DNA from: an uncultured euryarchaeote
Lineage (GTDB): Archaea; Thermoplasmatota; Poseidoniia; Poseidoniales; Poseidoniaceae
NCBI GenBank assembly: GCA_937894115.1
Contig: CALBFP010000067.1
Location: 1-50,958 of the forward strand
Reading direction: 5' to 3'
DNA: 50,958 bases
The position numbers and the translations under genes are program-made. The first letter of the stretch is position 1, and every line of letters starts with the position of its first letter. The notes beneath the pieces were generated by a model. The model was not told the origin of the DNA. It saw nothing but the letters and a program-made list of their open reading frames with translations, and ran no database searches. Positions 14,740-50,921 of the stretch are shown here, piece by piece.

Positions 14740-15786
14740 ATGCGAGACATCGACTCGAAACGAATCGACCTGAGATCGGATACTGTCACCCAACCAACGA
14801 TGGAGATGAGGCAGGCTATGTCCAAGGCCGTGGTAGGAGATGATGTTCTTGGTGATGACCCAACTGTCCAGCGCTTGGAATCCATGATTTCCGAATTATG
14901 TGGTAAGGATGCTGGATTATTTGTCCCTTCAGGAACCATGTCAAATGCGGTTGCGCTGAAGACACATACGACGCCAGGAGATGAGATTATTACGGAGCGT
15001 TACAGTCACATTTACCTCTACGAAGGAGGAGGTTATGCCGCCCTATGCGGCTCAAGTATCGCCCTTCCAGAGGGTCAGAACGGACTTCTTTCCCCTGAGC
15101 TTGTCGAGAAGTCTATTCGGAAACAGAAGGGTTCACAATCACATTACCCTGATGGAAGCCTTGTTTGCGTAGAAAATACGGCAAATCGGGGCGGCGGTAC
15201 GTGCTATCAACAAGATGCACTCGATGCGATTGCTGAGGTTTCCAAAAGTAAGAATTGTTCGACCCACATCGATGGTGCTCGTATCTTCAACGCAACGGTT
15301 GCCACCAAGACTCCTCTTTCCCGCATGACTCGCGATTACGATTCTGTATCCATTTGTCTATCCAAAGGATTGGGGGCGCCAGTCGGGTCGGTTCTTGTTG
15401 GGTCGAATGAATTCATCGAACAAGCTCATCGTTGGCGAAAGATGTTTGGCGGAGGAATGCGTCAATCAGGAATCTTGGCCGCTGCAGGAATCTACGCGAT
15501 TGAAAACAACATCGAGCGAATGGAAAAAGATCACTCTCGAGCAAAAACCATTGCGAGGGCTATTGATGAAATGGATCACGTTTCTGTCGATGTTGATGCT
15601 GTTCAGACCAACATGGTATATTTCTCTGCCAACGATTATACTGCCAGCGAGGTGTCACAAAAAATGGCAAAGGCAGGAATCGATATGTTCGACATTTCTC
15701 CAACACACTGTCGCATTGTAACGCACCTTCACATTACCGATGAAGACGTTCAAGGAGTCATTGAAGCACTTGCATCACTCGGTTGA
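14740..15786 (+). CDS. ltaE: Low-specificity L-threonine aldolase
   Basis: A PLP enzyme (fold type I) that splits threonine or allo-threonine into glycine and acetaldehyde. Typical blocks are IDLRSDTVTQPTMEMRQAM at the start, GDDVLGDDPTVQRLE, LFVPSGTMSNAVAL (phosphate-binding region), ENTANRGGGT, HIDGARIFNA (with the PLP-ring Asp) and CLSKGLGAPVGS (Schiff-base Lys near residue 209). RKMFGGGMRQSGILAAAG follows. Length (348) matches the family. It sits about 38 nt downstream of pth2, and no strong ribosome site is visible before ATG 14740. It is a source of glycine and one-carbon precursors. Confidence 0.94.
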   Translation: MRDIDSKRIDLRSDTVTQPTMEMRQAMSKAVVGDDVLGDDPTVQRLESMISELCGKDAGLFVPSGTMSNAVALKTHTTPGDEIITERYSHIYLYEGGGYAALCGSSIALPEGQNGLLSPELVEKSIRKQKGSQSHYPDGSLVCVENTANRGGGTCYQQDALDAIAEVSKSKNCSTHIDGARIFNATVATKTPLSRMTRDYDSVSICLSKGLGAPVGSVLVGSNEFIEQAHRWRKMFGGGMRQSGILAAAGIYAIENNIERMEKDHSRAKTIARAIDEMDHVSVDVDAVQTNMVYFSANDYTASEVSQKMAKAGIDMFDISPTHCRIVTHLHITDEDVQGVIEALASLG

Positions 15787-15789
15787 AAC

Positions 15790-15796
15790 TTTTTAA
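15790..15796 (+). promoter_or_regulatory. TATA-like box for the 15819 gene
   Basis: TTTTTAA immediately follows the ltaE stop. Its centre (15793) is 26 nt before ATG 15819, the distance expected from an archaeal TATA box to a transcription start. This suggests a leaderless mRNA starting at that ATG, and it explains why no Shine-Dalgarno site is present. Confidence 0.5.
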
Positions 15797-15818
15797 CACC
15801 TCGAAGTCAAACTCTTGT

Positions 15819-18062
15819 ATGATTGGAGAAGCCTGTGGCATCTGCCAAACCGAAAACGATGACGCAACCTGCCCAATTTGCGCACGTTGTATTGAAATAA
15901 CTGAGGAAAACAAATGGGCGCCATCACTTCCTTTGGAAGTTCATCAAAGAATGGCGGATGTACTTGGCGGGCCAGCACGTTCGTTACGTAAACGCTGGGA
16001 AAATCTTGAACGTTTTATGAATCATACACCTGATGTGGATTGGGCTCGTTTGGAAGATACCGAACAGGATCCTGTCCGCATTTCTCCATTTCCAGAAGAG
16101 GAGGGGCGTATTTTTGTTGAAAAACTAGAGAATCGTAGTGGATATTCTGGTTACGAAAAAGAACGACTTGAGGAAGGTTTCATCATGTGGGATGGGACCC
16201 TTCTTTCCTTTATCGATGGGCGAATGTCGATTGACGGGCGTGTCCATGAAGCGAGGATTCCTACCGAACAGTATCTCCTCCTACTCATGAATCCAATTGA
16301 ACGTAAAGGCTGGGATTTGGTGAAGTTGTTTTTGGCATTGAGTGGTTTGTATCAAATCATTGACATTAACCAGCGACCTCAACAGTATGCACATCGTTTT
16401 CGTCGATTGTTTGGACTTTTGCATCGCGAACGTCCCACGCCCTTCGACATCTTCGCTCAGACCTCCTTTCTTATTGAAAAGAGCGAACGGCGCAAGAAAA
16501 GTCCTTCATTTCCAGATTCGATAAACTGGTCGCTGGATTTGATGGGTCGCCTGTCCAGAAGACGTCCACGTCAACGCATAAAATTCGCCCGCCGTTTTGT
16601 ACGAGATGGTGAGAACACAGCGCTTCCAAACTCAAAATTGCCATGGGTTCAACGCTGGAAGCATCTGACTGAATTGGTTGCTCATGCCAATGTCAGCTTT
16701 CCTTTTATGATAAACACAAAAGGCGTTCTGAGTTTTCGAACGCTTACAAAAAACGGCAACGTTCGACGAACATCCATACCCTTTCTTCCAGGGCTGTTGG
16801 CCGGGTTGATTTCATGGGGTTCGTCTCCTCACGCCTCAAAGGAAGGGGGGTGGCTCATTGCTGCACAGATGAATTGGACTGCTCCCTATGAACATGCGGA
16901 CACCGCAAACCTTCCGTTTCGACGCTCAATGCAGTTCCTGCGCGGTGTGCTTCAACAATTCCCTAACGACACTTGGATTCATCAGGACCGCCTGCTTGTT
17001 CGTGGGATGCTCGGTCATTTTTACGAGATACGCATTCGACGCGGTGCACACAACGCTCCATTCAAAATCCATGCTGTTGGGAAGACAACCACGCACCGCC
17101 ATTCGATCTGCATTCACACAGGAAAACATCACAGAGACATCCCGATAGGTGATACGATTGCTATTGTTGTGCTGTCGCTTCTTTCGGATGTGACTACATC
17201 AAAGCGTATGAACAGTTTACAGATGCACCTGTTGACTCAACCCCCCATAGGTCTCCCGCAGAAAGAAACAGGCATAACCCCCAGTACATTTTACAAAACT
17301 CGTGAGAAATCGTATCGATTTCCCTTCAATCAACTTCTGCTCTTTGAGGGCCAAGATGAAACTCCATCCGATTTAGACTCGTTAGAATTTATGTCCGATG
17401 AGGCGATTGTTGAGCATTGGAAATTGCGACCAACGGGGAATGGACAATTCGATCCGCCAGGTCATTTGAATCCCGAATGGGATTGGGAGGTAAATGATGA
17501 TCAGATCCAGGTTAGGGAATTCGATCGACTTCGATACAATCAACAGGTCTTCCATCAATTTGAAAACATGCGAGAGAACATTGTTGCCATTCGTAATCCT
17601 CCTTTCCAGCAAGAGGAAGATGAACAGAGGGACCGCCATCATGACGATCAATTCTATCGTTGGTATCGAACTATGCCACTTGCATGGGAAGCTTTGTCAC
17701 TGCAACCCATTGGTCATCAGGTCGAAATGGGTGGTGTGCGCGGCATGTTTCGAATGCAAGGATGTAGATTGCGGTTAACAATTCGCTCAGCCCAAGAAGA
17801 GGATGCATTGCATCGGATTCTTGAGATTCTGGGTTACAGAAGGGCTCATTACCGTCAGTTGAACCATGTGTATGTTCGTAGAGATTTCCCTATTGCAGAC
17901 CCAAGACAAGCACTTCGAGAGTTGATGGAGCCCATGACAGAAGAGTTTGGTTTTGCAAACATTGACGATTACGTTCTACGCTTTATTGAGGTGGGGCGCC
18001 CTCCCGATCGAATGCCAGAGGTTGATGCACGTCTTCATGCAAACATGGTGGACTATTACTGA
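15819..18062 (+). CDS. Large protein of unknown function with N-terminal zinc ribbon
   Basis: I do not recognise this 747-residue protein. It opens with four cysteines in a zinc-ribbon spacing: C6-x2-C9-x8-C18-x2-C21. A basic, Arg-rich region follows (GRLSRRRPRQRIKFARRF). There is a middle part with many Trp/Phe/His residues and an acidic, charged C-terminal third (QQEEDEQRDRHHDDQFYRWYR). No signal peptide or membrane helix is evident, and no Walker, nuclease or SAM motif stands out. The Arg-rich and zinc-ribbon features would fit a nucleic-acid-binding protein, but that is inference. ATG 15819 is preferred on the TATA spacing; TTG 15783 would overlap the ltaE stop. It overlaps the convergent gene by 7 bp. 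Confidence 0.8.
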   Translation: MIGEACGICQTENDDATCPICARCIEITEENKWAPSLPLEVHQRMADVLGGPARSLRKRWENLERFMNHTPDVDWARLEDTEQDPVRISPFPEEEGRIFVEKLENRSGYSGYEKERLEEGFIMWDGTLLSFIDGRMSIDGRVHEARIPTEQYLLLLMNPIERKGWDLVKLFLALSGLYQIIDINQRPQQYAHRFRRLFGLLHRERPTPFDIFAQTSFLIEKSERRKKSPSFPDSINWSLDLMGRLSRRRPRQRIKFARRFVRDGENTALPNSKLPWVQRWKHLTELVAHANVSFPFMINTKGVLSFRTLTKNGNVRRTSIPFLPGLLAGLISWGSSPHASKEGGWLIAAQMNWTAPYEHADTANLPFRRSMQFLRGVLQQFPNDTWIHQDRLLVRGMLGHFYEIRIRRGAHNAPFKIHAVGKTTTHRHSICIHTGKHHRDIPIGDTIAIVVLSLLSDVTTSKRMNSLQMHLLTQPPIGLPQKETGITPSTFYKTREKSYRFPFNQLLLFEGQDETPSDLDSLEFMSDEAIVEHWKLRPTGNGQFDPPGHLNPEWDWEVNDDQIQVREFDRLRYNQQVFHQFENMRENIVAIRNPPFQQEEDEQRDRHHDDQFYRWYRTMPLAWEALSLQPIGHQVEMGGVRGMFRMQGCRLRLTIRSAQEEDALHRILEILGYRRAHYRQLNHVYVRRDFPIADPRQALRELMEPMTEEFGFANIDDYVLRFIEVGRPPDRMPEVDARLHANMVDYY

Positions 18063-19002: not shown

Positions 19003-20076
19003 TCAAAATTCCTTCTGGAGCACACCATAGTCGACGATTGTTCCTTCTGCGACCTTCTTCAAGAGCGATTTCAATCGGTTTTTAATGGTGTTTCTGCATC
19101 GACCAACAGCATCTGCAATCTTCTCTAGACGTCCTTGGTTAACATCAAACGCCTCACAAGAAATCTGGAATAGAATGGCACAGAGGACTTTTGCTTCGAT
19201 GTTTTCACTAGAGAATGGAGAACCATCAACAGTGGGTTCACCAAGCAAAAGGAGTCGCTGTTTGAAGTCATCCATTATCCGGACCTTCAATCCCTCATCA
19301 AGACCTTCAAGTAGCTGCTTGAGGGCTAATGTTGTGTTCTCAATTTCGAGGGTTCGAACGCGTTCCAGAACCGTCTTTCTATCGACCTTCCCTTCGATAA
19401 TGCCAGCTTTCTCGCAGAGAATGAGGTACTTGGTAACGACACGTGCAGCTGCAACGACCTGAGTCATCGTGAGATTGGTGCCTTTGAGCATTTGCTGCCA
19501 ATCGATGTTAACACGACCGGTCCAATCTTGCAGCGCTCTCAAACAACCAAGAGCAAGCAATCTCTCGTTGTTTGAAGTGCTACCGCCTCGAGTTTTTTTC
19601 CTGCAGATTGAGTTTTTAGGGAGTTTGATCTCCGTATCGCCAGCAACCTTCTCGAGGGCCGCCTTTTCGTTTCCTTCGAGAGGAACCGTTGACAGAGTGA
19701 TGACCTTCTTCGCTTTCATAGCATTGTCTTTGCCTGCGAGTGTCTTTGCAGCATCCATGGTTGCTTGGGCCATCGGGTGGAAATCTTTTGCGTCTTGGGC
19801 GTGCATCTGGCTAAGCAATTTCCATTTTCCTTTGGCTTCACCTGGTTTGCCGATGTACGACCCAAGAGCATTTCCTTTCGAACCGGTTTTGATTTTCGAT
19901 TCATCCTTCGTTGGTGTATTGGAGGCGCCTTCGCCCCACATACTTCCTGCATTATCGCTTTGCCCAGCCGAGGCTTTATCTTCGACGACCAAGCCGCAAT
20001 CATTGCAGACAACTTCACCTCGTCTGTTGTCCACTTTCAGGTCTTTACTTCCACATTCTTCACACATTCGATACAT
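19003..20076 (-). CDS. tfb: Transcription initiation factor TFB, divergent paralogue
   Basis: TFB bridges TBP-bound promoters and RNA polymerase. The N-terminal zinc ribbon is intact (C5-x2-C8, C24-x2-C27, followed by GLVVEDKAS). Cyclin-like repeats follow: the first centres on LLALGCLRALQDWTGRVNIDW and TQVVAAARVVTKYLI. The second ends with the helix-turn-helix-like LEKIADAVGRCRNTIKNRLKSL. The cyclin repeats and the long Gly/Lys-rich linker (TGSKGNALGSYIGKPGEAKGKW) are less conserved than in a standard TFB, so a specialised paralogue is likely. ATG 20076 has a strong AAGGAGG at 20084-20090, 7 nt away. It is divergent from the addB/addA-like operon. Confidence 0.88.
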   Translation of the reverse strand: MYRMCEECGSKDLKVDNRRGEVVCNDCGLVVEDKASAGQSDNAGSMWGEGASNTPTKDESKIKTGSKGNALGSYIGKPGEAKGKWKLLSQMHAQDAKDFHPMAQATMDAAKTLAGKDNAMKAKKVITLSTVPLEGNEKAALEKVAGDTEIKLPKNSICRKKTRGGSTSNNERLLALGCLRALQDWTGRVNIDWQQMLKGTNLTMTQVVAAARVVTKYLILCEKAGIIEGKVDRKTVLERVRTLEIENTTLALKQLLEGLDEGLKVRIMDDFKQRLLLLGEPTVDGSPFSSENIEAKVLCAILFQISCEAFDVNQGRLEKIADAVGRCRNTIKNRLKSLLKKVAEGTIVDYGVLQKEF

Positions 20077-20337: not shown

Positions 20338-20373
20338 CCGTCGTGTATCATGATGACGGGTGGGGAGGATTTG

Positions 20374-23300
20374 ATGAAGAACATTACAGTTGAGTCATGT
20401 CCATCGGATACTATCGTACCTCCCTGGATAATCGACAGTATTGCAGACGGTCGTGATGATTTGCTTGTTGTTTACCCCAACGAAGCGACACGATTATCAT
20501 CGATTCAGTCCATTTTGAGAAAGTCAGGGTATGTTGATTCCAGTCGGCATACGACGCTTCAGAGACTTGTGAAAGCCTTGTCGATCGATTTGCGTCTTCC
20601 AGTCATCATTCCAACAACTGCAATGGGGCTGATTCAGGTGCATGATAAATTTGCAGATGCTGCAAGAAACCACCGTTTTCCACGCCTTCATCCCGATGTT
20701 GCCCGTCCTTGGACACTTTCAAAATCCGAGCGCTTACTCCGACTCCATGCTTATGTTACAAAAAATCGAATTCTCTCAAAATGGAAGGACGACCCTGGTG
20801 CGCTTGAAGCCGAAAGAATTGTATCAACATTTGAGACGAACGGCTTGCTCCACGAGCACAAAGTGATTGCTTATCTTTGCGATGCTTTGAGTGACCAAGA
20901 GCGGTCAATTCCCTACACAATGGGAACAATTAACGGCATAATTCTCTTGAATCACCCCCCAGATTTCACGGAGAGCGAGAAGTGTCTGCTGGAAGCAATA
21001 GCACTTCGACGTCCAATTCATCATCTATGTTCCACAGGATCATTCCGTCTCGGTTTCCATGGCGCATACATCGACGATGAAATCGTACACATACAAGACG
21101 AGACCCAACTTCCTGAATGGGTTCCAAGTCACGTCGTTTGGTCTGCGCTGCACAACGAGGACAATTACACGACTGAGGGGATACACTTGTTCAGTTTCGA
21201 TCGAGCATCTCAAATTTTTGATGCTGCAATATCAGCAATTGAACTTTTCAAGAAGCATTCCAATGGAACAGTGCTTCTTATTGACGCCGATGAACATCGG
21301 CATACTGAATGGGCGAGGCGCCTCCAACAAATCGGTATTAGCTGTGATGTTCAAGCAAACGCAGTTGGTAGCACATCCGCCGTGCAAGCAATCCTTCGCT
21401 TTTTGAGCATTTCATACGGTCAAGATGCATGGTCAGCAGCTAAATTGTTTGATGTTGCTCAAGCCCAGGCCTTTCCAATCAACGAAAATCTCTTTTCAGA
21501 TCTCAAGCATCCTGTTCACGAAGAATGGCGACCGAGACCACATCTGGATGTGATTGAGAACATTGGGCGCAGTTTCCATGTGCTCGGAGGCAAGGGGGCA
21601 TTGCAGCGCTGGCTTGGCTCATTATCCGTTGCACAACCCTATGCAACAGAAGTGTTCCGGAGAAGAGAACAGGAACGTGCCATTGAAGAGACCCATTGGT
21701 GGTTGCAATGCCTTGCTACAACGTGGTCTGCATTGTTGGATAAGAGTGAGCAAAACCTCCTGCTCGGCGATTTTATTGGAATCTCATCGCAGGCTCCACT
21801 CCCGTTGCCCGAACCAAGCAAATCCCCCAGGGACGTGCTGACAAAACTGTTACTCGCTTGCAATTGGGAGAAGATGTTTGAACGTATTCAAAACTACGAT
21901 GCTTCTGTTGGGGCTCTTCAAGCATGGGTTCAGGCTGTAGACGCTTTACTTCGGCATGCTCCCAATGTCGAATTCGTGGAGCTCTGCCGACTCGCTTCAC
22001 AGCAAACCAAGCTTCCAATGCGTAGAATCAATCACTCTGATGTTCATGTTTGCACACCAAACAGTGCCTACGGCATCTCATCGGACCTCACCCTGTTTGC
22101 TGGAGTGGATGCGGAATCATGGTCGATGAAGCCCGAACGTGTACCATGGGTTGACGACTCCGTTCGAATGCAGTTGGGCTTGGTTGACGGAGATTTGCCC
22201 ATTCGTAAAGCGCGCCATCTCTTCAGATCGCTGTTAAACTCAAGCCAGCAGTCGATTCTCTTTGACACGGAACATGACGAATCAGTTGGCAATTCAACCC
22301 CCCTTGTTGAATACTTATCCATGGTAGAACTTGACGGTGATTTAGGGAAATTATCAAACATACCCGAATTCATTGAAAAGAATGTGTCCGATGGCTCCGG
22401 TTGGTCAATCGTAACCAGAGAAAATGGCAATTGGTTGACCTATCGAACCTCATCGCTGTCCATTAGCAATGGAGAGGTTAAACTTGACAGAGTAAAACAT
22501 AGACAACGAGACAGACAACAACAAGCTGGTCTTGAACTCCGAGCGTTTCGACCACCTACGGTTGAGGTTCAATCTCTGATTTCAATCGCAAATCGATTTG
22601 AACGAGACATTCATGTCGATCGTTTTCGACGACAGCCGAAGTTCAAGCCATTGGAAAACGGTGCGACGATGGGTTGGGAAATTAGAGACAACTTGTTGAC
22701 AACAACAAATCTCATTATCCAGCCAACGGTTTCCCAAGCGAACGTGAAAGGCGGTCGTACTGCAACATTCTACCCCCATCTTGGTTTCAAGAAGAACGGT
22801 ATTTCGAGAGGACCATCTCTGGATCCGAGGCCACTACCTCCTCCAGATTTTACTTCCAAAAGCTTGAATCAAATCCTCTCAAGCCCTACAGATGAGGATG
22901 AAGCGAAAGTATGGTCGACGAGTCGTTTGAATCCATGGTTTGTTTGTCCACGCCAAGCATGGACAGAACAAGTACTCGGAGCCACAGAGCATGCTCCTGA
23001 GCCATCGGAAGATATTGCGCCTCTGATGAAGGGGACTCTCGTGCATTCAATCGAGGAGTACCTCATGACCTTAATTGGCATTGAGATTGGAGGGCCCCCA
23101 TTGGAGAATGAATTGCCGATGCATCGTAGTGTTTCACTTTCCAACCAAGAGATCTGGGAGGGGTTGTTGAGACAGTTGGCCGAACTTGCGCCTTGGCTTG
23201 TTCGAACAAATGCAGTGTCTGTGCACCGATGCAACGATTTGATTGGGTGTTCGCCTGAGCAATGGCGCAATTGGCTCGAAGGAGATGGAGAATTAGCCAT

Positions 23301-24054
23301 TGGGGGAAGGCTTGGACGACTTCTACTCGCCGATTTAGGTCTTACATCAGCAGCGCCAATTGCCTGTGAATGGTCACTTCAAAAAGAAGGTAAATCGTAC
23401 ATTGAAATTGAAGGATTTGACGATGAATTGAATTCGTCTATTCTCAATCTTCGAGGACGAATCGACCGAGTGGATTGCCTTGTTTTGGATGGAACGGCGA
23501 CCGAGCAGTTAGAAAAACGCGGCTTGCACAAAGAGGATGCAACACAAATCCCCCTGTACTTTGACGGTGATGGACCTGCAGCAAAACGCTTCATAATTAT
23601 TCGAGATATCAAAACCATAGAAGGACCAAGACCTGGAGAACGCGGAATTCGCCATACATCAGGACTCTTCAAAGAAACACAACTTGCGCTATATGCCCGG
23701 GCGTGGGAACTTGCTCATCCGGGTGACAGAGTCATTGGTGTTGGCATTTCAGAAGTTGGTGACGATACTTATCACATGGTGGAACTCGACCCAAGTTTCA
23801 GTTTTCTTGACCCCGAACATCTGATTGGAATACGCACATCATATTCAGAAAATCATTTCCGAATGCCTAATGAAAACCAGAGCCCTCAAAGCAACAGCTT
23901 TCGAGCTTGGATGAGTTCTCGAATCACTGCTGCAATCAGAGCACGAAACGCCAGTAGACTTGGATGGAATCATCCAACTCCTGGAACTCATTGCTCCTAT
24001 TGTCCACTTGTTAATGCCTGCTCGTCAGCATCCATCGGAGGTGAAATCAAATGA
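20374..24054 (+). CDS. addB: AddB/RexB-like subunit of a helicase-nuclease, PD-(D/E)XK with iron-sulfur staple
   Basis: This 1226-residue protein resembles AddB: a long helicase-like body without an intact Walker A and a C-terminal RecB-family nuclease. The nuclease shows GTLVHSIEEYL, LRGRIDRVD and the catalytic IIRDIKT (Asp1078, Lys1080). The iron-sulfur staple pattern of AddB/Cas4 enzymes is complete: Cys858 in NPWFVCPRQAW, then C1207-x2-C1210-x5-C1216 at the extreme C terminus. In bacteria AddB pairs with AddA to resect double-strand breaks. ATG 20374 is chosen because GGAGG lies 5 nt upstream. The stop overlaps the next ATG as ATGA, so the subunits are translationally coupled. The family assignment is good; strict orthology to bacterial AddB is not proven. 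Confidence 0.8.
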   Translation: MKNITVESCPSDTIVPPWIIDSIADGRDDLLVVYPNEATRLSSIQSILRKSGYVDSSRHTTLQRLVKALSIDLRLPVIIPTTAMGLIQVHDKFADAARNHRFPRLHPDVARPWTLSKSERLLRLHAYVTKNRILSKWKDDPGALEAERIVSTFETNGLLHEHKVIAYLCDALSDQERSIPYTMGTINGIILLNHPPDFTESEKCLLEAIALRRPIHHLCSTGSFRLGFHGAYIDDEIVHIQDETQLPEWVPSHVVWSALHNEDNYTTEGIHLFSFDRASQIFDAAISAIELFKKHSNGTVLLIDADEHRHTEWARRLQQIGISCDVQANAVGSTSAVQAILRFLSISYGQDAWSAAKLFDVAQAQAFPINENLFSDLKHPVHEEWRPRPHLDVIENIGRSFHVLGGKGALQRWLGSLSVAQPYATEVFRRREQERAIEETHWWLQCLATTWSALLDKSEQNLLLGDFIGISSQAPLPLPEPSKSPRDVLTKLLLACNWEKMFERIQNYDASVGALQAWVQAVDALLRHAPNVEFVELCRLASQQTKLPMRRINHSDVHVCTPNSAYGISSDLTLFAGVDAESWSMKPERVPWVDDSVRMQLGLVDGDLPIRKARHLFRSLLNSSQQSILFDTEHDESVGNSTPLVEYLSMVELDGDLGKLSNIPEFIEKNVSDGSGWSIVTRENGNWLTYRTSSLSISNGEVKLDRVKHRQRDRQQQAGLELRAFRPPTVEVQSLISIANRFERDIHVDRFRRQPKFKPLENGATMGWEIRDNLLTTTNLIIQPTVSQANVKGGRTATFYPHLGFKKNGISRGPSLDPRPLPPPDFTSKSLNQILSSPTDEDEAKVWSTSRLNPWFVCPRQAWTEQVLGATEHAPEPSEDIAPLMKGTLVHSIEEYLMTLIGIEIGGPPLENELPMHRSVSLSNQEIWEGLLRQLAELAPWLVRTNAVSVHRCNDLIGCSPEQWRNWLEGDGELAIGGRLGRLLLADLGLTSAAPIACEWSLQKEGKSYIEIEGFDDELNSSILNLRGRIDRVDCLVLDGTATEQLEKRGLHKEDATQIPLYFDGDGPAAKRFIIIRDIKTIEGPRPGERGIRHTSGLFKETQLALYARAWELAHPGDRVIGVGISEVGDDTYHMVELDPSFSFLDPEHLIGIRTSYSENHFRMPNENQSPQSNSFRAWMSSRITAAIRARNASRLGWNHPTPGTHCSYCPLVNACSSASIGGEIK

Positions 24055-27000
24055 TTTCCTTCAACCGCAGTCAACGATTAGGACTTAATCTTGACCAACA
24101 TATTGCACTGGATGCGGGTGCTGGCACTGGGAAAACAACCGTGATGGCAGAACGTTACGTTCAACATCTTCTTTCTCCGGAACAACGAGCCACGCATGTG
24201 TTACCCCCTCCCATTCGATTTGAGCAATACGGTTCCGGCAACATTCTCGCTGCCAAAAGAGACCGTACACCGTTGACGGAATGGAAGGGGTTGCTTCCGC
24301 AAGAAATTGTAGCCATCACCTTTACACGTAAAGCCGCTTCAGAATTGCGTTCAAGAATCAAAAATCGAATACAATCGCTTCGGGCACATCCAGTGAAAGA
24401 TGATGATAGAATGGGCGTACATGATCCAAGGCTTCGCCATCAAGGCGATGTATCGATGTTGATGTCGTTGCTTGAGTCTTCGCCCATCTCAACGATTGAC
24501 GCTTTTCTGTCTGAGATTCTTGCTCCACACATCGATTTGGTTGCGATACACCTGAGTCGAGATCAGCTGCCCGAGGAAAAGGCGCCACTGTTGAGGAATC
24601 AAGCGTTAAATGCTGCATGGCGAATTCGAAATGGGCGCGATGCCATTGAAGCTGGCATGCTCCAACCATCGGATGCTTTCATCGAGGCTCGAAACCGGTT
24701 GGCAATTCGTTTAGGAGGTCAATCAAGTGCGCAGACAGTCCTTTTGGGTCTGCTTGAATCCTCGCTTTTTGTTGAAGAATCGCGACGAAGACTCCGAGCG
24801 CGCTCCATCCGATGCGGTACACCGTGGGATGGAACGAGCGCCCCTGATCACCGTCTTATCGAAGATATGATCTTGGAGGATTGTCGCTCATTGATTGATC
24901 CTGTTTTCGTGGACGTCCGTGCAATCCTCAACGAATGGGTCGACGTATTCCTGCAATATCACTCAATATTCGTTGCTCCTGCTGAAATCGAAACAACAGA
25001 AACACGTTTCAACCAACTCGCTCACCTAGCAAGAAAACCGATGTCTGAACAACCGATTGAACGTCTTCGTTGGTTGTATCAAGTCGTTGCAGCAGCCACA
25101 TCTCCTGCACAATTGGAAGAGACAAAACCAACCATACTCAAAGGAGGGAACTTCCCTCGTTCCAATACGCTAGGTAATTGGCCCGCAGGGTTGATGAGTT
25201 GGTCCTCGGTATTGAAAAAAACCTCTGAGAAGGTCTTGAAGGCACAAACAACCGCTGCAGCTTCCGACGCTGCACGTCGATTGCAAGAACGCATCCATAA
25301 TCCAGCAGACGGGCGCCTCGTTCTCATGCTTGCAAAGGTTGCTTATTGCCTGAATCCGGTTGAACCGTTCGTTCATCGTGGTCCAAACGAGCGTTATGAT
25401 AGGTTTCCACTTGGTCTTGAAGTTTCTCAAGAACCTCCAGAAGGGGATCAAAGGGTAACAGGCGAGCTCCAAGTAGAGGTTTTGAATGATCTTTACACAG
25501 TTCATTTGGGTTGTCAGGATTTACTTCGTCACCTAAAATCGCAAGAAGAGGCGCACGATTTCGATGATGTTCAAACAATGGTGGGAGACCTATTGCTCTC
25601 CCGTTGCCCTGCGATTGTTCGCCATTGGTATCCTCCAGAAGCAGTACAAGCTTTGGACGATTTAGGAAATGAACCGTGGTCGGATAATCATATTCGCAGA
25701 GCTCTGTCGATAATGCAAAATGAAGAAGAAAAACATCTTGATTTGCGCCGAAGATACGCACTTTTGAAGCAGATTCGAGCCCGATATCGTGCATTCATCA
25801 TCGATGAATATCAGGACACAAATCCCGAGCATGCTCGCCTCCTTTCTCGTCTATGGGGCCGAAGGGATGGAATTTCTGAGAATCATCCTGCACCTGCCGG
25901 GCCATGGGATCCAACCATTTGCATTGTTGGGGACATGAAACAAAGCATATACCGATTCCGCCAAGCCGAGGTGACCGTCATGCGTCGGATGGTTGCAGCA
26001 ATACGAATGACAAATCGGATTGAAAGAAACGAATCACGTTTGCAAGCCTTTACTCAGGAAGGCTTCGGTCGTGACCCCCGCCCCGTTGGCGCAGGGGGCG
26101 AAGGCGGTTCTTTCATTCAGGCTGCAGATTATTCACGAAGCGAACAATCTGCCCAGTGGAGTTTTGTCCCGTTTGGTATAGATGATTCAGGACTAGCAAT
26201 CGGTGATGAAGCAACAGTGGAACGTATCGAGGGCCATATCCAATTGAGAACCAATTTCCGAACAGCCCCAGGTTTACTTCAAACCTTGAACAACGTGTTT
26301 GATGACACGTTTGATGTACGGCATCACCAATTCCCTGGTGATTTTCATGCCAACGCCCAACCTCTTGATGCTGGCCGAGAAACAGACCGAATGGGAGTTC
26401 TTGAGTGGCTTCTACCCACGCAAAACTCCACGGATGCCCTGCCTCTTAATCTCAACAAAGGCTACAATCTGTTTGATGCAGAAAATGCAAATTTACGTCA
26501 TTTAGAACACGAATTAATTGCTTCGAGATTGGAGTCTCTTGTACGAGGTTCAACCACTCGTGTATGGTCTGCAAAGAATCATGCGTTTGTTGAAATTGAG
26601 GCCGAGAATGCGATTTCACCAGAGGATGTGATGATTCTTGTTCATTCCCGTAAGCACATACCCGATCTCATCGCTCGCTTGCAGGCACGTGGCTTGCCGG
26701 TTATGGCTGATAAACAAGGAGAATTGCTCAAACAACCTGTAGTGCAGCCATTAATGGCGTTACTCGAACTTCTTGCGAAGCCATGGTCAAAACATGCAAG
26801 TCATATCTTATTGCGTTCTTCAATTATAGGTGCATCCTCCGTTCAAATTGAAGAAATCCTCGGAACAGGTAACGTTGAAGATTATTGGCGCCACATTGCA
26901 GACTATTTCAAAGATCAACCGCAAGGCAGATTCTTAGAAGCATGTTCAAATTTAGTCCATCATGGTGCAATTTATGACGTCTTTGATGCTGCACTTGATT

Positions 27001-29024
27001 ACAGTGATTTACTTGTCGCATTTCCTGATGAATCCGAACGACAAGTGGCAGAGACATGGTGTGCATTGCTCAGGAGATTAGGTGCAGAATATGGACATGA
27101 ACCAATTGCAATCCTTGACCAAATGAAAGCGTTCTCCACTCTAGGTAGTAAGGGTCCACAAGCGAGCGGACCCCCAACAAGTGGAGCAGTTCAAATAATG
27201 ACCATTCATGGAGCGAAAGGCCTTCAAGCACCGGTTGTCATCGTAACAGGTTTGTTTGAAGCCGGGCGCCGTAGTTCAAGCATTGAAGCGCAAAACAACG
27301 TGCTCATTACACCTGATGTTATCGCCGGTAGAATTCAGCCATGGAAGTCAAAAAACAAACCAGAAGATGCCCTGTGGATGTTAGCAGAACAAATGAACAA
27401 GGCTCAAAATCAGGCTGAATTACGCCGCCAATTCTATGTTGCTCTGACCAGAGTTAAGGACCGATTAATTTTCGTTGGTTCACCAAACAAGCCTTGTTCG
27501 GTGAATGCCGATTCAACAATTGAAATGAAAATCAATTCCAAGGGAAACAACATGGGTGATTTTATGTTGGATGGATTCCGATATATGGGTCTGCATTCTG
27601 AGCAAGATCAACCATGGACCCTCGATGGTGATGTTCAAGGAGAGGTTTTGTCAGAGTTTGGTGATCAGGTGTTGAAATTCGACCCATACGCTCTTTTCCA
27701 ATCAAGTGGGTTCATGCAAGGATCACTTCAATCATTGCGATTCTACCATCACCCAAGTTGTTTTGTAAAACAAAAACCAACCTCCGTTCTTTCAGATTGG
27801 ACAAGCATCGAAAATCAATTACAAAAACCAATACAAAACACTCAAGTTGAAACCACTCATTTCGTCCAATCCCCAACTCTTAAGATGACCGCACATGGTT
27901 TGGATACGGCTCATTCATGTCGACGTCGTTATTGGCTTTCTCACATTAAAGGTTGGCAAAGCGAACCTTTCATGATTCAGCCAAATTCTATTTATGTTCC
28001 GAATGAGGTTGAAACAAAAGACCGATCCAATGGGGAAGATGTTGTATCGGGTCCTATCGGTTGGCCATCGGCAACTGCGTTTGGATCGATGTTTCACAGA
28101 CTTGTTGAGATTGGTTTGGCGAACCCTGCGCAAATGAAGTCAAACGGTTATGAATTGGCGCCAGCTTGGTTGAATTCTCAACCCAATCAACTCTTGTCGC
28201 GCAAGGAACTCGATGATGCGACACATTCTCATCCTGAGTGGCATCGGTTATCCTTTGAAGAACAAACACAGGCACGTGACCGAATGTTCGAACTGGCGAA
28301 ACGTCTTACAGATGGAGCATTGGGCAAACTGGTTGCTGGGGATGCCATACAAAATCTCATGGTTGAAGGTTTGCGAACAGAAGCTTCGTTTGTTTTCAAT
28401 CACCGCGTCGATTTTGATGGGCTGCTCCAAACGCCCATAAACAAGCTTAACGAATCCTATCAAACGTTGATTGAAGCGGTTAACATTCTCTTTGAGGGTC
28501 AAGCCGATTTAGCTTTGGCTGGAGTTGAGGGGGACCGTCCTTGGTTGCAAATTGTTGATTTGAAAACCACGGGGGCACGAGAGGTTAATTTGGAGCAAAC
28601 TCCTTTGCATGAATCGCTTAACGAACCGCTTTCGTTGGAGCCACAAAACGAAGCAGAACATGAGATGTTGAGAAATCACCGACTTCAATTGACGTTGTAC
28701 TCTTTGGTTTTACGTGAACAAGAGGAGAGAAAAGCGGTAGGAAAGCGCCGAGAAATACGCCCACCTGCTCTGCTAATTGCGAGCACAGGGCGCCTTGTTC
28801 AAATGCCGGATAACATGTACAAAGAAGCCAACAAAGAGCTGTTGAACCTGCTCGATTGGATGGCGAGACTTGCTGCGGATCCAAATGGTGTTGATGAGCC
28901 AAAACGCCTTCCAAACGAGGCTCTTGATACCTGTAAAAAGTGCCCGTTCTTTAATGGAGATATCAGAATGTGCGGTCCACAAAATCTTGCTCTGGGGGTC
29001 ACTTTTGATTCTTCTTCCCAATGA
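24051..29024 (+). CDS. addA: AddA/RecB-like UvrD-type helicase fused to RecB-family nuclease
   Basis: A 1657-residue superfamily 1 helicase with all motifs: Walker A GAGTGKTT near residue 23, ITFTRKAASELR (Ia), IIDEYQDTNP near 584 (II), VGDMKQSIYRFR (III), LRTNFRT (IV), TIHGAKGLQAP near 1051 (V) and YVALTRVKDRL near 1130 (VI). The C-terminal nuclease has FGSMFHRLVE, GQADLAL, IVDLKTTG (Asp1503, Lys1505) and LQLTLYSLVL. Cys1290 in TAHSCRRRYW together with C1628-x2-C1631-x9-C1641 looks like an iron-sulfur staple, which bacterial AddA normally lacks. GGAGGTGA precedes the ATG. With the coupled upstream gene it would unwind and degrade double-strand ends to load a RadA-type recombinase. Its length exceeds the usual about 1200. 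Confidence 0.88.
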   Translation: MISFNRSQRLGLNLDQHIALDAGAGTGKTTVMAERYVQHLLSPEQRATHVLPPPIRFEQYGSGNILAAKRDRTPLTEWKGLLPQEIVAITFTRKAASELRSRIKNRIQSLRAHPVKDDDRMGVHDPRLRHQGDVSMLMSLLESSPISTIDAFLSEILAPHIDLVAIHLSRDQLPEEKAPLLRNQALNAAWRIRNGRDAIEAGMLQPSDAFIEARNRLAIRLGGQSSAQTVLLGLLESSLFVEESRRRLRARSIRCGTPWDGTSAPDHRLIEDMILEDCRSLIDPVFVDVRAILNEWVDVFLQYHSIFVAPAEIETTETRFNQLAHLARKPMSEQPIERLRWLYQVVAAATSPAQLEETKPTILKGGNFPRSNTLGNWPAGLMSWSSVLKKTSEKVLKAQTTAAASDAARRLQERIHNPADGRLVLMLAKVAYCLNPVEPFVHRGPNERYDRFPLGLEVSQEPPEGDQRVTGELQVEVLNDLYTVHLGCQDLLRHLKSQEEAHDFDDVQTMVGDLLLSRCPAIVRHWYPPEAVQALDDLGNEPWSDNHIRRALSIMQNEEEKHLDLRRRYALLKQIRARYRAFIIDEYQDTNPEHARLLSRLWGRRDGISENHPAPAGPWDPTICIVGDMKQSIYRFRQAEVTVMRRMVAAIRMTNRIERNESRLQAFTQEGFGRDPRPVGAGGEGGSFIQAADYSRSEQSAQWSFVPFGIDDSGLAIGDEATVERIEGHIQLRTNFRTAPGLLQTLNNVFDDTFDVRHHQFPGDFHANAQPLDAGRETDRMGVLEWLLPTQNSTDALPLNLNKGYNLFDAENANLRHLEHELIASRLESLVRGSTTRVWSAKNHAFVEIEAENAISPEDVMILVHSRKHIPDLIARLQARGLPVMADKQGELLKQPVVQPLMALLELLAKPWSKHASHILLRSSIIGASSVQIEEILGTGNVEDYWRHIADYFKDQPQGRFLEACSNLVHHGAIYDVFDAALDYSDLLVAFPDESERQVAETWCALLRRLGAEYGHEPIAILDQMKAFSTLGSKGPQASGPPTSGAVQIMTIHGAKGLQAPVVIVTGLFEAGRRSSSIEAQNNVLITPDVIAGRIQPWKSKNKPEDALWMLAEQMNKAQNQAELRRQFYVALTRVKDRLIFVGSPNKPCSVNADSTIEMKINSKGNNMGDFMLDGFRYMGLHSEQDQPWTLDGDVQGEVLSEFGDQVLKFDPYALFQSSGFMQGSLQSLRFYHHPSCFVKQKPTSVLSDWTSIENQLQKPIQNTQVETTHFVQSPTLKMTAHGLDTAHSCRRRYWLSHIKGWQSEPFMIQPNSIYVPNEVETKDRSNGEDVVSGPIGWPSATAFGSMFHRLVEIGLANPAQMKSNGYELAPAWLNSQPNQLLSRKELDDATHSHPEWHRLSFEEQTQARDRMFELAKRLTDGALGKLVAGDAIQNLMVEGLRTEASFVFNHRVDFDGLLQTPINKLNESYQTLIEAVNILFEGQADLALAGVEGDRPWLQIVDLKTTGAREVNLEQTPLHESLNEPLSLEPQNEAEHEMLRNHRLQLTLYSLVLREQEERKAVGKRREIRPPALLIASTGRLVQMPDNMYKEANKELLNLLDWMARLAADPNGVDEPKRLPNEALDTCKKCPFFNGDIRMCGPQNLALGVTFDSSSQ

Positions 29025-32699: not shown

Positions 32700-33497
32700 A
32701 TGAGTGAAGAAGGAACCCTCACCCCTGAAGTCCGTATAGATCAACTAGAAGAGGCTCTTGCAACTGAAACAGACCGTTTGAAGAAACTCTTCGCAGCATA
32801 TGAAACTCAAGAGAAAGAATTGGTCGATGCACGAGCAGAAATTGAGGTTCTTGAGAAAGAAATCATCGATAAAGAAATCGAACGAGAAGCGCAAGAGTCG
32901 TTGATTGCAGAGAAAGATTTCCGCATCCGCGAACTTGAAATGAAGGCGACAAAAGCGGACAAGCGAGTTGAACATCTCGAACCTGCATTGCAAACGATGG
33001 AAGAGAAATATTCTCGAGAAAAAGATCGGTTAGGGAAAGTTTTCGGTATCGCAGAAGAGCTGGACAACGATCTGAAGCTTGCTGTTACCGAAATGAAAGC
33101 TCGCGATGATTGGTACGTTGCTCATATGACGCTTTTTGAAGAACTTAACAAAGCCATCAAGGAACGTTACGATATGATTGAAAGAGCCGTTGAGGCTGAG
33201 CGTGAATCTCAACACATGTCTCGTGCGTTTACAGAGCGTATGGACGAAATGGTCGAAGCACGTGCTGCTGAAATGACTGTTGAAGAGGCCGAAGCAGTTA
33301 TCGAAGAGGGTACTGGCGAGGTGGCTGAAATCGTTGATGAAGAAGCACCTGCCGATGAAGAAGCACCTGCTGAACAAGAAACACCCGCAGTAGAGGAAGC
33401 ACCCGTTGATGAAGAATCACCAGATGTTGAAGCGGAAGCAGTCGATGATGCTGGGGCAACATGGGATTCTGACGCCGACCCATGGGCCGATAATTGA
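32700..33497 (+). CDS. Acidic coiled-coil protein of unknown function
   Basis: The 265-residue protein is almost entirely helical: heptad-rich Glu/Lys coiled coil from about residue 8 to 110 and again to about 190. A disordered Glu/Ala/Pro tail with repeats of EEAPADEEAPA type follows. The very end reads ATWDSDADPWADN. There is no signal peptide or membrane helix. The DPW motif also occurs in the cytoplasmic tail of the giant surface protein in this window. A scaffolding or cytoskeletal-adaptor role is possible but unproven. It is followed 11 nt later by the decarboxylase gene, whose ribosome site overlaps this gene's stop. Confidence 0.8.
   Translation: MSEEGTLTPEVRIDQLEEALATETDRLKKLFAAYETQEKELVDARAEIEVLEKEIIDKEIEREAQESLIAEKDFRIRELEMKATKADKRVEHLEPALQTMEEKYSREKDRLGKVFGIAEELDNDLKLAVTEMKARDDWYVAHMTLFEELNKAIKERYDMIERAVEAERESQHMSRAFTERMDEMVEARAAEMTVEEAEAVIEEGTGEVAEIVDEEAPADEEAPAEQETPAVEEAPVDEESPDVEAEAVDDAGATWDSDADPWADN
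33336..33421 (+). repeat. Imperfect tandem repeat encoding Glu/Ala/Pro-rich tail
   Basis: The unit GATGAAGAAGCACCT recurs with variations about every 15-18 nt and encodes DEEAPA/EQETPA/VEEAPV blocks. It lies in the C-terminal disordered tail of the coiled-coil gene and is prone to length change by slippage. Confidence 0.6.
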
Positions 33498-42614: not shown

Positions 42615-45600
42615 TCACAACAAGTCGTCCAAAAACGACGTGTCAAGTTCCGAATTGGAGGTTTTCCGAGGAGTATCCGCGTTTAAATCATCGAGCAATG
42701 CATTATCGACAACGGGTCGGACGGGGCTCATGACAGGACGGGAGGGGATGTACTCCTCACGGCCTGTATTGCCACTTTCGATTCTATCAGCTGCTTGGAA
42801 GAGTGATTCTGCTTGGGCTGGTGTTGTTGGTGGTGGTGGGACATAGTTTTGCGAGGGCGTATCCCACGGATCATCTGCAATTCCCCAAGTTGCTGTTTGA
42901 ATCTCCCACTCTTTGTCTCGTTGTGACTTTCTTCCACGCCCTCGGACAATGGCAAGCAAGAGGAAGAGGGAAACGACAAGGAGGCCTGCAACAATAAGGT
43001 TGGGGGTTGTGAGTAAGGATTCAAATCCACTCTCTGAGCTTGGCTCCTCTGAGAGCAGGTTGGGTGCATCCACAGGGTTGATCTTTTTCGCATCGACGGA
43101 TTGTTTCACTATTCCATTGCTGTCGAAGGTTGTTACTGAAATAAACCAAGCCGAGGAATTGACCAGTTCGGGGAAGTTTTCCTTGGTAATCAACAATTCA
43201 TTGAGAATGTACTCTTCACCTACTGGAATCGCATCCGATATATCGGTGAAATCTTCGGACCTGATGTGGATCATGTATCCTTCCACATTAACATCATTGG
43301 AAGGGTCCCATGTTACGCGGATGTTTGTCTCTTCCTCCCAAATTAAAGTAATGCCATCAATACTTGGAAGGAAACCACCAGGATCGGTAACGTTGTCATC
43401 TATTGGTATTGCCGACACGACATTCAAATCGGATGTAATCGAGTTTCCTGCGGAGTCGACGGGTACGACGGCAACCCAGATTTCTTGTTCAGGAAGAACC
43501 TCAAAATTACCTGCAAGTTGTGTGAGAGTAACAGGAAGATTTGGTGCGCGACTTTCAAGGGTTAGGGATGGGTCGACTGGACCGTCAGCTGCCCCAAAAC
43601 CAACACCTGCAAACGACCAAGGTGCGGCATAGATTTCGTATTTTTCAACGTCGCTGGCTTCCGATAGGCCAAATTCGAGAAGTAGAGCAGAACCGTCATC
43701 CATCGGCCGATCACGTAAGGTTAGATTGTCCAAACGCGGGGGCGGAGTTGTATCCTCAAAGTTGTCAATTGGAACCACACTTGCAGAGAGCAACGAATCC
43801 GTGTAAACATCGCCTTGCAGGTCGTGGACCGTCACGGTAACGAATAATTCAATGCCTGGACGGATTAAACCTGGCTCATCCAAGGGCCCAAACATATCAG
43901 TGTTTTCTGGTGGTCCGTAGAGCGCAGTGTTTAACGTCAGTTCAATAGGATTCTTTTCTTCGTCAATCCACTGTCTATCAAGAACAATACAGCCACACGT
44001 TTCTGGGTTGTCTCCATATGCATTCCAGAGATATCCCACATCGTCTACTGGCTTATCCGCAGCCCAAACAACGTATTTGCTGAAGTCGCCAGCATTCGAA
44101 ATGGACCAAACGACGTCAATCGCAGTTCCATCATCATCAGGATGGTCGTATGCTTGTATGCTTTCAATTCGAGCTGGAGGTATTGACGCCCCATCGGAAT
44201 TGTCGAGGGGAGTCGCTGTAACAATTTCAACACTGTTTGGGTTGTTGTTCAACCATGTGTCGAAGGCCACTACACCAATGTAATATTCCAAACCATTGAC
44301 TAAGGGGTTGTCGTTGAGTTGCGAGACTATGGTTGAATTTTCGCTACAACTGTTGACAACAGCAGATTCTGAAAATCCAGCGACGGAGGATGGATAGGTT
44401 GCGAAAACGACGTCAGTTATCATGTAAACGACGTAGTACGCACAATCATCAGCATCGCTGATGTCCCACCCAACTGTGATGCGACCGCCCTCATCATCCG
44501 GTGTATCAATCGCCCAGACGTTCTCGAGTTTTGCTGGAGGGATTCCATCATCAACACCTCCCGTTGGAACGACTGGTCCAATGATGGTTGCATTCATGAG
44601 ATTCTCCTGACCGATGGTGTCCACGCATGTGAAACCAAGCCAGTACGGTTTTCCAGGGTCCAAATTGAGGATGGTTGTGTTTCCTTCCGTTGGTAGTACG
44701 GTTGTGGTGGCGGTCAGGCCAAGTACGTTTGACATGGGTTGAGTTGAGGCATAAATACGGGTTTCCAAGAGATCTAAAGCGGTACATCTCGCCCATTCCG
44801 TCTCTAGATCCCCAGCGACACCACCGTTCATAGGTTGGGCCGCAGCCCAGAGAGGTGGTGTGGGAACTTCATTGCTGGTGGTTACGGGTCCGAAAACTTG
44901 GCTTGGCAAACCGTATCTTCCGTTGTTGTATTCAACAACAACGAGCGCGTAGTAATCTTCTCCATCGACCAAAGGAACACCGTTTGCTGTCGTTACGTCA
45001 GCTCTTAGCCGACTGTGAATCGATTCGGATTTATCGATAATACGGCCGGCCAAATCAATGTCGCTTGGTAAAACGGTCCAAGGCTGATCGTTGACATAGA
45101 CAAGGTATCGGCTGAAGTCGGAATCGTGAACCAACGTCCATTCAACGGTAAGTGCACCTCCGCCATCATCCGGTCGGTCGTACATGTCAACGATTTCAAC
45201 GGGCGTATCCAAACGCACCCAGTCGTAAGTTAGACGCACCTCAATTGATCCGTTTGAAGGAGCAATCAATTTGATCGGTACGAAACGAGTCCCATTGATC
45301 AGTTGCCCGTTGTTGATGGCAAGTTGAAGACCATTTTCAACGCCGGAAGTGTTGTTCAATTCAAGGACTGCATCGTATCTCAAAGCAACCGAGTTTGCCC
45401 AAACGGCTGCGTTTGATACTGGAGACGTCATGATGAGCGGGACAGTTTGGAACAGCAATCCATGCACACCGGCTTGTCCTAGAGACGAATTGAGAGAGAT
45501 CGGGCTACCGGGTGAAACAAGTTCGATGGCATAACCCGGATGAGTCATGTTTGAGATGTCCATGTATTGCGAGTTGAATCCGATGTTGAGTGGATTTGCA

Positions 45601-48600
45601 TAGCGAACAGTTTCTCGCTCCATTTCATCGAATGCTGTTGCGGGTGTCCATCCTCGTAATCCAGCATCACTGGTTGTTAACCAGAAGCCGTTTGTACCCA
45701 CGGCGACGTTTGTTGGGTTCTGAACGGTTGCAGATTTAACACTTGAATGAGTGGCTGTCTGTGCTTCAACGATTGTCATTGCATTCAATCCCATTAGCAT
45801 AACATGTGTACCGTCGCTGCTCATTCTGTAAATTGGCCAAGACGGTAGTTGGAAGCTTGCTAAACCGTCTTTGAATTCCTTTGTGAGTCCGTTGTAATGA
45901 ATTAACGGTCCCACATCGGTTGCAATGTGAAGTCCAGCAAAGTCGGATGCAACAGCGGTAACGTAATTTGATGGAAGTTGGTCAAAGCGATGGGTTTCAA
46001 GGACGGAATTTGACGAGGCATCGACGAAGGAAGCCCCAGGTCGTTCTGAGCCCGCTCCATCATGACCTAAAACCAGTTGAACGGGCTGATTCACACCCTG
46101 CGGAGCGTAGGTCTCAATCGACCAAACGGAGTTTCCTAGTAAACCATCAGCGGTTGTATTGGTGCTTATTGCACCTGTTGTAGGAACGTATTGTGATAGG
46201 CCGCTGGATGACGCAATGTAAAGTGTGTTTGAGATGAATTTTATGTCTTCGATATTGGACGAGGGGAGTCCATCTGCAGTTGTGAGGGGATTGTCCCAGT
46301 CATTCGCAGTCATGTTCCATCGACCGATTCCGTTTTGTGTGGCAACATAGACGTGGTCGTTTGAAACCGCAAATCCTTGAATGTTATCAGAGGGTAATCC
46401 TGAGAGAAGATAGCCGTTTCCGAACTGCTGTGTTGCAATGTCGAATGCTTGTATACCTGCAGCGGTTGAGAAGGTCCCAAGTAGGCCAACATACAGTGTT
46501 GATACACCGTTCGACTGGTGCATATCCAAACCACCCAGTTCGTCATGGATTGATCCCGCTTGTTTTTGCAATGTTCCACCGATGGTATCGAGCGTGAACA
46601 GTCCGCTTCCCGTGGTTGAGATGTAGATGGTTGTTCCATCCATCATCATGTCTCCTATTTTGGTGAAGAACGGAAGCGCCCATCCCTCTTCCCAATCGAT
46701 ACCTCCGGTTGCATTGAACGAACCTTGGAGGATTCCTGCCGTTCCTTGACCTCCTCCATTTCCACCACCGCCTGAAGAGGATTCGGTTGCAACCCATATC
46801 TTCGAACCGTCACTTACCATCGAACGAACGTTTCCACTTACCAGTGCCGGCAATTCAAACGCAGTGTACAATCCCGAACTGCCCAGAATGTCCACTCGCG
46901 AGTACCCACTTGCTTCACCTGCTTGGCCAATAAGCCATTCAGTTCCCGTGTGTTTGACCGATGTAACTGGCGTACCCACAAGTTGAACACTGGCTTGACC
47001 GGTTATCGCTCCTCGAGTTGAAACAACAGCAAACCCGCCAGAATCATCGTAACCAATCATGAGTTTGCCGTTGGAGTAATCCATAGCATCGAGCCACACA
47101 GGATCTTCGGGAAGGTTGTTCGAAGCTGTCGTGATTTTAGCTAACCAGGATTGGCTGGAAGTGTCATACTTCGAGATTCCCTCTCCTTCAGCATCGTAGC
47201 CTACGTACAGAGTATCAACTGAATCACAGGTTACCGCAGCCACGCGCCCGCTGCTCAAAACAGAAGTAGTGAAAGAGCCTTGAACTGTTGAAGTGTTGAG
47301 GTCCATGTAAACAACACCGCCGTTGTTGTTGAACAGACCGATGTAAACGTACGCACCGCATTGGCTCACTGAGAGAGGGTAGCCGTTAGGTATTCCATTT
47401 TGCCCTGTATTAAATGTCGACCAATCCCCGGTTGCATTCAGATGACCTACGGTTCCTCGTTGGAATCCTCCCCATCCAGCGAAACTTGCTGAACCAACCA
47501 ACAGATGTTGCCCATCGGTCCAAAGCTCACCAACCCAGTCACCCATGTTGTTTGGCAACCCGTTTCCAGGCGTCCACGTAGATTCCCAAGAAAATGATGT
47601 TTCATTGAAACGTTCGACTCCATCCTCTGTAGCGAAGAGTATGAGCCCATCGTACTCGATAATCTCTCGAATTGGAAATTCAAGATTATCCCAGAAACCA
47701 AGTTTTGTTCCACTTGGGCTGTAAACTTCAAGGCCAATTTCGCCCCAGGAAATCCACGTATGGCCGCTTGAGGATTCGAATGCTGTCACTCGATCGACTT
47801 GACCAGTAGGCAGGATTGAAGAATTCCATGAATTGGTTTGAAGATCGTATTGAACGATTCCTCCGCTTCCATCTTGATTCCACCACTGCCCTGAAACGAC
47901 ACTTGCAAGCAATGTGTCGCCAATTATCTCCAGACCAACGATATCGCCCCCATTCTCTCCGATTCGCTGTCCAGCATCGAGAGGAGAAATAGAGGTGAAG
48001 TTCGCAACATCGATTCCATAGATGCTGTCACTAGAGGCACCTTGATGGTAATACATTGTGTAACCGTACATGGTTAAATCGTATGGATCACCATTGCCAG
48101 AGTAGAGCGAATTTGATTTCTCAATGTCATAGAATTCCGTACCGTTTGCAGTGCCAAGAAGTTGGAAACCGTCTTCGCCACCGATCCAGATGTAACCGGG
48201 CCGAACATCAGCAATCAGCGCTGTGACATCTTCGTTCCCATCATCGAGCGCGTTATCGTCCGTCCATGTCGTGAGCCATTCACTGTTGCTGATGTCCCAT
48301 CGAGCAACACCAATACCTGTTAAGCCAATGTAGGCGATGTCATCGATGACTTCAACGATGGCGTCAGAAGTTGAGTCGGTTGCTACCCATTCATCCTCAA
48401 CACTGAAGCTGCTTTTGTCGATGAGACCAACACCGCTGAAGGTTCCGCCAAAAACCGTGGTGCTGTTTACACCAACAACATAGGTGGCCCAGTTCGGCAT
48501 GCCGTCGTATACGTTTAGGCAATCATCGATTGCACCGTTGCTTGGAGAATATCGGCAAACACCTATGTTGGTCCCTGCATACATCCAATTCCCATCGTAT

Positions 48601-50897: not shown

Positions 50898-50921
50898 AAC
50901 CATCATGCAATCACTTGACTA

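Follow-up and report, generated by a model that had tools for sequence, protein, structure and literature searches.

The archaeal order Poseidoniales (Marine Group II, MGII) appears to have dispensed with the proteins by which other archaea are thought to handle broken DNA, Mre11-Rad50 and the NurA proteins. No credible Mre11 was found in 293 Poseidoniales genomes, no Rad50/SbcC in 40 and no NurA in 82; the order carries an AddAB-type enzyme and RadA instead. We consider it probable that this enzyme, encoded by two overlapping genes, is a helicase-nuclease that resects double-strand breaks for RadA recombination and replaces the Mre11-Rad50-HerA-NurA route. A more specific reading is that the order lost Mre11-Rad50 and NurA and resects with a single AddAB-type enzyme whose two nucleases each bear an iron-sulfur staple, that of AddA having a novel C-x2-C-x9-C arrangement; we judge this to be evenly balanced between right and wrong. 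The genomic absence of Mre11-Rad50-NurA is a stronger finding than the novelty of the cysteines or of the archaeal gene pair. A 2020 review described Mre11/Rad50 as universally conserved and left archaeal end resection unclear (PMC7690668). We found no report of AddAB or of a missing Mre11 in Poseidoniales in the open-access literature.

The gene pair comes from contig C67 of a draft genome of 2.33 Mb, which is assigned to this order by its relatives. The window, by which we mean the whole 50,958-nt stretch of DNA that was analysed, contains the following features of the gene pair, with conservation given for the alignments of the order:

20350..24054 (alternative start 20374), + strand: gene of the AddB-like subunit, 1,234 aa, with an inactive-helicase-like N-terminal region and a C-terminal PD-(D/E)XK nuclease (Pfam; AlphaFold model compared with the PDB)
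22912..24051, + strand: AddB-like nuclease domain, about residues 855-1234 (Pfam PDDEXK_1; profile match to bacterial and haloarchaeal AddB nucleases)
22945..22947, + strand: Cys866 (earlier Cys858), putative first staple cysteine of the AddB-like protein, in 95/95 rows
23605..23613, + strand: D1086-I-K1088, nuclease catalytic motif of the AddB-like protein, at least 97% conserved
23992..24021, + strand: C1215-x2-C1218-x5-C1224, putative C-terminal staple cysteines of the AddB-like protein, in 89/95 rows
24051..24054, + strand: ATGA stop/start overlap joining the addB-like and addA-like genes (ORF coordinates)
24051..29024, + strand: gene of the AddA-like subunit, 1,657 aa, with a UvrD/AddA-type motor and a C-terminal PD-(D/E)XK nuclease (Pfam, NCBIfam, PDB sequence match)
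24117..24137, + strand: Walker A GAGTGKT, residues 23-29 of the AddA-like motor, at least 97% conserved
25803..25817, + strand: motif II DEYQD, residues 585-589 of the AddA-like motor, with D585, E586, Q588 and D589 at least 97% conserved
27918..27920, + strand: Cys1290, putative first staple cysteine of the AddA-like nuclease, in 94/97 rows, in register with the first staple cysteine of AddB nucleases and of AddA-like plasmid proteins
28557..28565, + strand: D1503-L-K1505, nuclease catalytic motif of the AddA-like protein, with D and K at least 97% conserved
28932..28973, + strand: C1628-x2-C1631-x9-C1641, putative C-terminal staple cysteines of the AddA-like protein (C1628 and C1631 in 91/95 rows, C1641 in 77/82)

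A first-pass annotation of this DNA had described an ATGA-coupled AddB/AddA-like pair, and both reading frames (20350-24054 and 24051-29024) and their overlap were recovered. The annotation began the AddB-like protein at 20374, an in-frame ATG eight codons 3' of the first ATG (20350), so its residue numbers differ by eight from those of the longer ORF: its Cys858/1207/1210/1216 are our 866/1215/1218/1224. With this offset its AddB-like cysteine positions are exact, as are those given for the AddA-like protein (1290/1628/1631/1641). The D-x-K motif that it noted in both nuclease domains is likewise present, and is conserved across the order. The genes on either side of the two-gene unit lie on the opposite strand, and no gene for RecD, the second motor of RecBCD, adjoins the unit at this locus.

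In the AddB-like protein Pfam identified only a PD-(D/E)XK domain (PDDEXK_1), with no UvrD motor domain detected. Its sequence matched no solved structure, and a PDB sequence-profile search with both the nuclease and the AddB alignments gave no useful match; the assignment to AddAB therefore rests on structure comparison and profile-profile alignment. An AlphaFold model of residues 36-1234, built from the order's own alignment, reached a mean pLDDT of 87. AddB chains took the first five places among the PDB matches of this model (E from 5e-19 to 9e-17, TM roughly 0.5 across the chain); AdnA ranked sixth, several orders of magnitude below them, and RecC further down. In the profile-profile alignment, the nuclease domain was placed on bacterial and haloarchaeal AddB nucleases with E=1.2e-21 and all four cysteines in register. 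As modelled, the subunit has the AddB fold of an AddAB enzyme, an inactive helicase joined to a nuclease, and it is probably the inactive arm of the heterodimer.

The AddA-like protein presents UvrD motor domains followed by a PD-(D/E)XK domain (PDDEXK_1, Pfam). The NCBIfam models ranked it closest to AddA (TIGR02785, 145.9 bits, well short of the 707.65-bit cut-off for curated AddA equivalogs), followed by RecB (137 bits) and PcrA (77 bits), and its best PDB sequence match was the AddA of the solved AddAB structure 3u44. Besides Walker A and motif II, the motifs GDxKQSIYxFR, HxxKGL and YVxxTR are at least 97% conserved in the order alignment, and the set of UvrD/RecB-type motor motifs is complete. 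Together with the AddB fold of its partner, this AddA/RecB-type motor supports the AddAB-type architecture that had been proposed. The AlphaFold model of residues 1150-1657, also from the order's own alignment (mean pLDDT 86), was closest to Dna2, AdnA and AddB, which we take to be iron-sulfur nucleases, ahead of RecB; no AddA chains were among the PDB matches listed.

The AddA-like gene was found in 96 of the 98 genomes sampled, in all 22 genera (22/22) and in both families of the order, and in nearly all loci long enough for both genes the AddB-like gene lies directly upstream. In a phylum-wide sample of 293 genomes, a profile of the full-length AddB-like protein matched 79/82 Poseidoniales and 0/6 genomes of the class's other family; elsewhere in the sample we observed only matches of about 50 residues around the first-cysteine motif. 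Nearly every locus with full flanks keeps the neighbouring genes, and the window also encodes MCM, GatE and other housekeeping genes. Given this order-wide distribution and these conserved housekeeping flanks, the pair is a core chromosomal locus and not a defence island.

Profile searches of the same sample (the split into 82 Poseidoniales and 211 others being taken from the kinship column of the listed rows) found Mre11 in 0/82 Poseidoniales versus 165/211 other Thermoplasmatota, with a profile that also finds the E. coli and B. subtilis homologues. In a larger sample of the order, two of 293 genomes gave Mre11 matches, both weak (26 and 23 bits), and none of 35 high-quality genomes did (0/35). 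NurA was found in 0/82 Poseidoniales versus 65/211 other Thermoplasmatota, and in 0/60 relatives. Missing NurA alone does not imply replacement by AddAB, since many other Thermoplasmatota also gave no NurA match. The SbcC/Rad50 Walker B family (PF13558) was over its cut-off in 0/40 Poseidoniales and positive in 12/14 controls; it was used in place of the Rad50 zinc-hook family, which was dropped as a marker after the Haloferax and Methanosarcina controls stayed silent. RadA was present in 40/40 Poseidoniales. The loss of Mre11-Rad50-NurA in the order thus holds at the level of sequence profiles, and these absences strengthen the end-resection role suggested earlier. One high-quality genome of the class's other family (G100) encodes both Mre11 and NurA and lacks an AddB-like match, suggesting that the loss or replacement took place close to the base of Poseidoniales; five more of that family (G165, G177, G231, G237 and G326) gave no Mre11, NurA or AddB-like profile match.

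The first-pass annotation had also recommended looking for HerA and NurA in the genome. NurA proved absent throughout the order sample (0/82), and a HerA-like match does exist in the host genome, an 818-aa DUF87 ATPase with apparent membrane segments. This ATPase has no evident NurA partner and looks membrane-bound, and DUF87 itself was rejected as a HerA marker because it is too general. The host genome encodes three more Cas4-like PD-(D/E)XK nucleases with staple-like cysteines (L195, 931-2127; L196, 421-2190; L197, 608-1777), the last with apparent membrane segments inside the nuclease. These other nucleases could also act on DNA ends.

The eight staple-type cysteines of the two proteins are conserved far above chance in the order alignments, and the remaining cysteines are mostly poorly conserved, with C519, C624 and C1237 of the AddA-like protein as exceptions. 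The AddB-like quartet is intact in 88 of 94 evaluable relatives. The AddA-like quartet is intact in 76 of 98 evaluable rows, a count from which two rows truncated by the end of a contig and a third containing unread bases were excluded, and the last spacing is nine in all 76. Using hhalign, we aligned the AddA-like nuclease with the dual-cysteine plasmid AddA proteins (E=1e-9), with C1290, C1628 and C1631 in register and C1641 falling beyond the end of the alignment; a profile-profile alignment with AddB nucleases (E=1.5e-8) also placed C1290 in register. Both AlphaFold models put the first cysteine at a single-residue interruption between two helices; the other three, towards the C-terminus, come after a short helix near the protein end or lie within it. 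Judging by its sequence, the AddA-like nuclease fits the layout of staple nucleases, with one cysteine before and three after the core at homologous positions. A four-cysteine iron-sulfur staple, with its putative metal cluster, probably closes both nuclease domains.

These cysteines have not been kept everywhere. Traced on a tree of 75 AddA-like motors, these residues show nine changes in the AddA-like tail triple and two each in C1290 and the AddB-like triple. Each of the two independent C1290 losses is accompanied by a missing AddA-like tail triple (two events only, sign test p 0.5). One type of locus (L066, L077 and L093) has neither the AddA-like quartet nor the AddB-like tail triple and keeps both nuclease sites, and this lineage is a natural staple-free comparison. 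Since the cysteines were lost repeatedly while the catalytic D-x-K stays at least 97% conserved, the staples look helpful but dispensable, and the putative AddA-like cluster appears dispensable in some lineages. The earlier proposal of a dual iron-sulfur nuclease is upheld as far as both subunits carry staple-type cysteines, and is weakened by the roughly nine losses or rearrangements of the AddA-like set.

Related pairs exist outside the order. Haloarchaeal plasmids carry AddB-AddA-like pairs of a PD-(D/E)XK nuclease and a UvrD helicase, contrary to the earlier view that such a pair is unexpected in archaea; these share with Poseidoniales the C-x2-C-x5-C of the AddB-like protein but have no staple motif in the AddA-like protein and fall in a separate clade. 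Plasmid pairs of Picosynechococcus and Deinococcus have a first cysteine and C-x2-C-x5-C in each of their subunits, so the dual-cysteine pair of Poseidoniales is not unique. They resemble the Poseidoniales pair in their overlapping or adjacent genes and in their nuclease profiles (E=1e-9), and differ in the x5 rather than x9 spacing of the AddA-like protein, in much shorter proteins, in being plasmid-borne and in forming a separate clade. The AddA-like protein of Kovacikia also carries four staple cysteines, and in Thermus pairs the motif is found in the AddB-like protein only. No staple motif was present in the AddA of Paenibacillus, Pusillibacter and Sinorhizobium, so that the cysteines are indeed foreign to the classical AddA tested, as had been anticipated. 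Neither the dual staple nor the archaeal AddB-AddA-like pair is unique to Poseidoniales; the x9 spacing and the order-wide chromosomal pair were seen only there among the relatives compared. The AddB-like protein was not found in plasmids by tblastn, and phages gave three partial motor matches only. Two of the Deinococcus dual-cysteine pairs, on plasmids of strain QL22 (L161) and of D. psychrotolerans (L191), lie beside WYL-domain genes, L161 also beside BREX, and possibly represent a defence-associated AddAB variant.

A helicase phylogeny, which had been proposed as a check, placed Poseidoniales in one clade (support 100/100) on a long stem (1.87), separate from three other groups: AddA, the haloarchaeal pairs, and the pairs of cyanobacteria, Deinococcus and Thermus. 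The tree leaves the mutual branch order of these groups undecided. The pair shares with bacterial AddAB of the B. subtilis type the addB-addA order, the gene overlap, the AddB fold, one UvrD-type motor, two PD-(D/E)XK nucleases and C...C-x2-C-x5-C in AddB. In contrast to bacterial AddAB, it has an extra four-cysteine motif in the AddA-like nuclease, and its 1,657-aa AddA-like protein scores 146 bits against the NCBIfam cut-off of 708 and forms a separate deep branch.

Three other explanations were weighed. An enzyme of AddAB type might have defence as its main task, degrading foreign linear DNA. The Deinococcus QL22 plasmid relative adjoining BREX genes points in this direction, as do the UvrD-Cas4 fusions linked to restriction systems, which likewise join a UvrD-type motor to a Cas4-like iron-sulfur nuclease (PMC5704561). 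These fusions, as that paper describes them, stand alone in defence contexts, whereas in Poseidoniales the motor is of AddA/RecB type, scoring higher with AddA/RecB than with PcrA/UvrD models (NCBIfam), and belongs to a conserved pair together with an AddB-like protein. The AddA-like protein also gives weak PADLOC matches to GajB, but these reflect the UvrD motor that the two have in common. Most defence genes have a patchy distribution, while this pair is near-universal in the order and has conserved neighbours in nearly all full-flank loci, with MCM and GatE nearby; a primarily defensive role is thus improbable. Even less plausible is that the pair belongs to the AdnAB class of mycobacteria, with two motor-nuclease subunits. 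Both systems have two nucleases, and AdnA was the sixth-best structural match of the AddB-like model and the second-best of the AddA-like nuclease model, but Pfam found no UvrD motor domain in the AddB-like subunit and five AddB chains outrank AdnA by several orders of magnitude.

Alternatively, the staple might be confined to the AddB-like subunit, and the AddA-like cysteines might bind zinc or form an iron-free structural motif. Their last spacing is x9, against x5 in all the other staples found, their motif was lost or rearranged about nine times, and classical AddA proteins do without it. Yet three of them fall on staple cysteines when aligned with related nucleases, the same helix-Cys-helix is predicted at the first cysteine of both subunits, and C1290 and the tail triple disappeared together in both independent C1290 losses. 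We regard this alternative as unlikely, though less so than the other two.

The preferred reading remains that of an AddAB-type resection enzyme, which has most likely taken over the role of Mre11-Rad50-NurA. By analogy with AddAB, the AddA-like subunit, whose motor motifs are present, would be an ATP-driven 3'-5' motor and the AddB-like subunit would hold the duplex end. Each unwound strand would be fed to one nuclease and cut by the PD-(D/E)XK site of that subunit, which would leave RadA with a 3' tail. In the AddAB enzyme of B. subtilis, the strand with the 3' end is cut by the nuclease of AddA and that with the 5' end by the nuclease of AddB (PMC4824097). For the Poseidoniales pair we infer complex formation, activity, the clusters, the division of strands and any Chi response. 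If confirmed, this would be a natural swap of the archaeal/eukaryotic start of break processing for a bacterial-type one that feeds an archaeal recombinase, in the most abundant archaea of the surface ocean. It would also provide a tractable enzyme for asking whether a second iron-sulfur staple brings a benefit or can be spared, a comparison made possible by the lineages without it.

Several other genes of the window have unusual features. A 2,763-aa ORF (42615-50906, - strand) has no Pfam match. A TFIIB-like protein (19003-20076, - strand), with a zinc ribbon and no TFIIB cyclin repeats by Pfam, lies beside the addB-like gene in most full-flank loci. A 759-aa protein (15783-18062, + strand), unmatched in Pfam and with pairs of cysteines close to the N-terminus, lies upstream of the locus in 31/34 full-flank loci. 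Finally, a 265-aa protein (32700-33497, + strand), also without a Pfam match, is kept in 34/34 full-flank loci, and several relatives match its best segment at 97-100% identity, versus 60-97% for their neighbouring genes.
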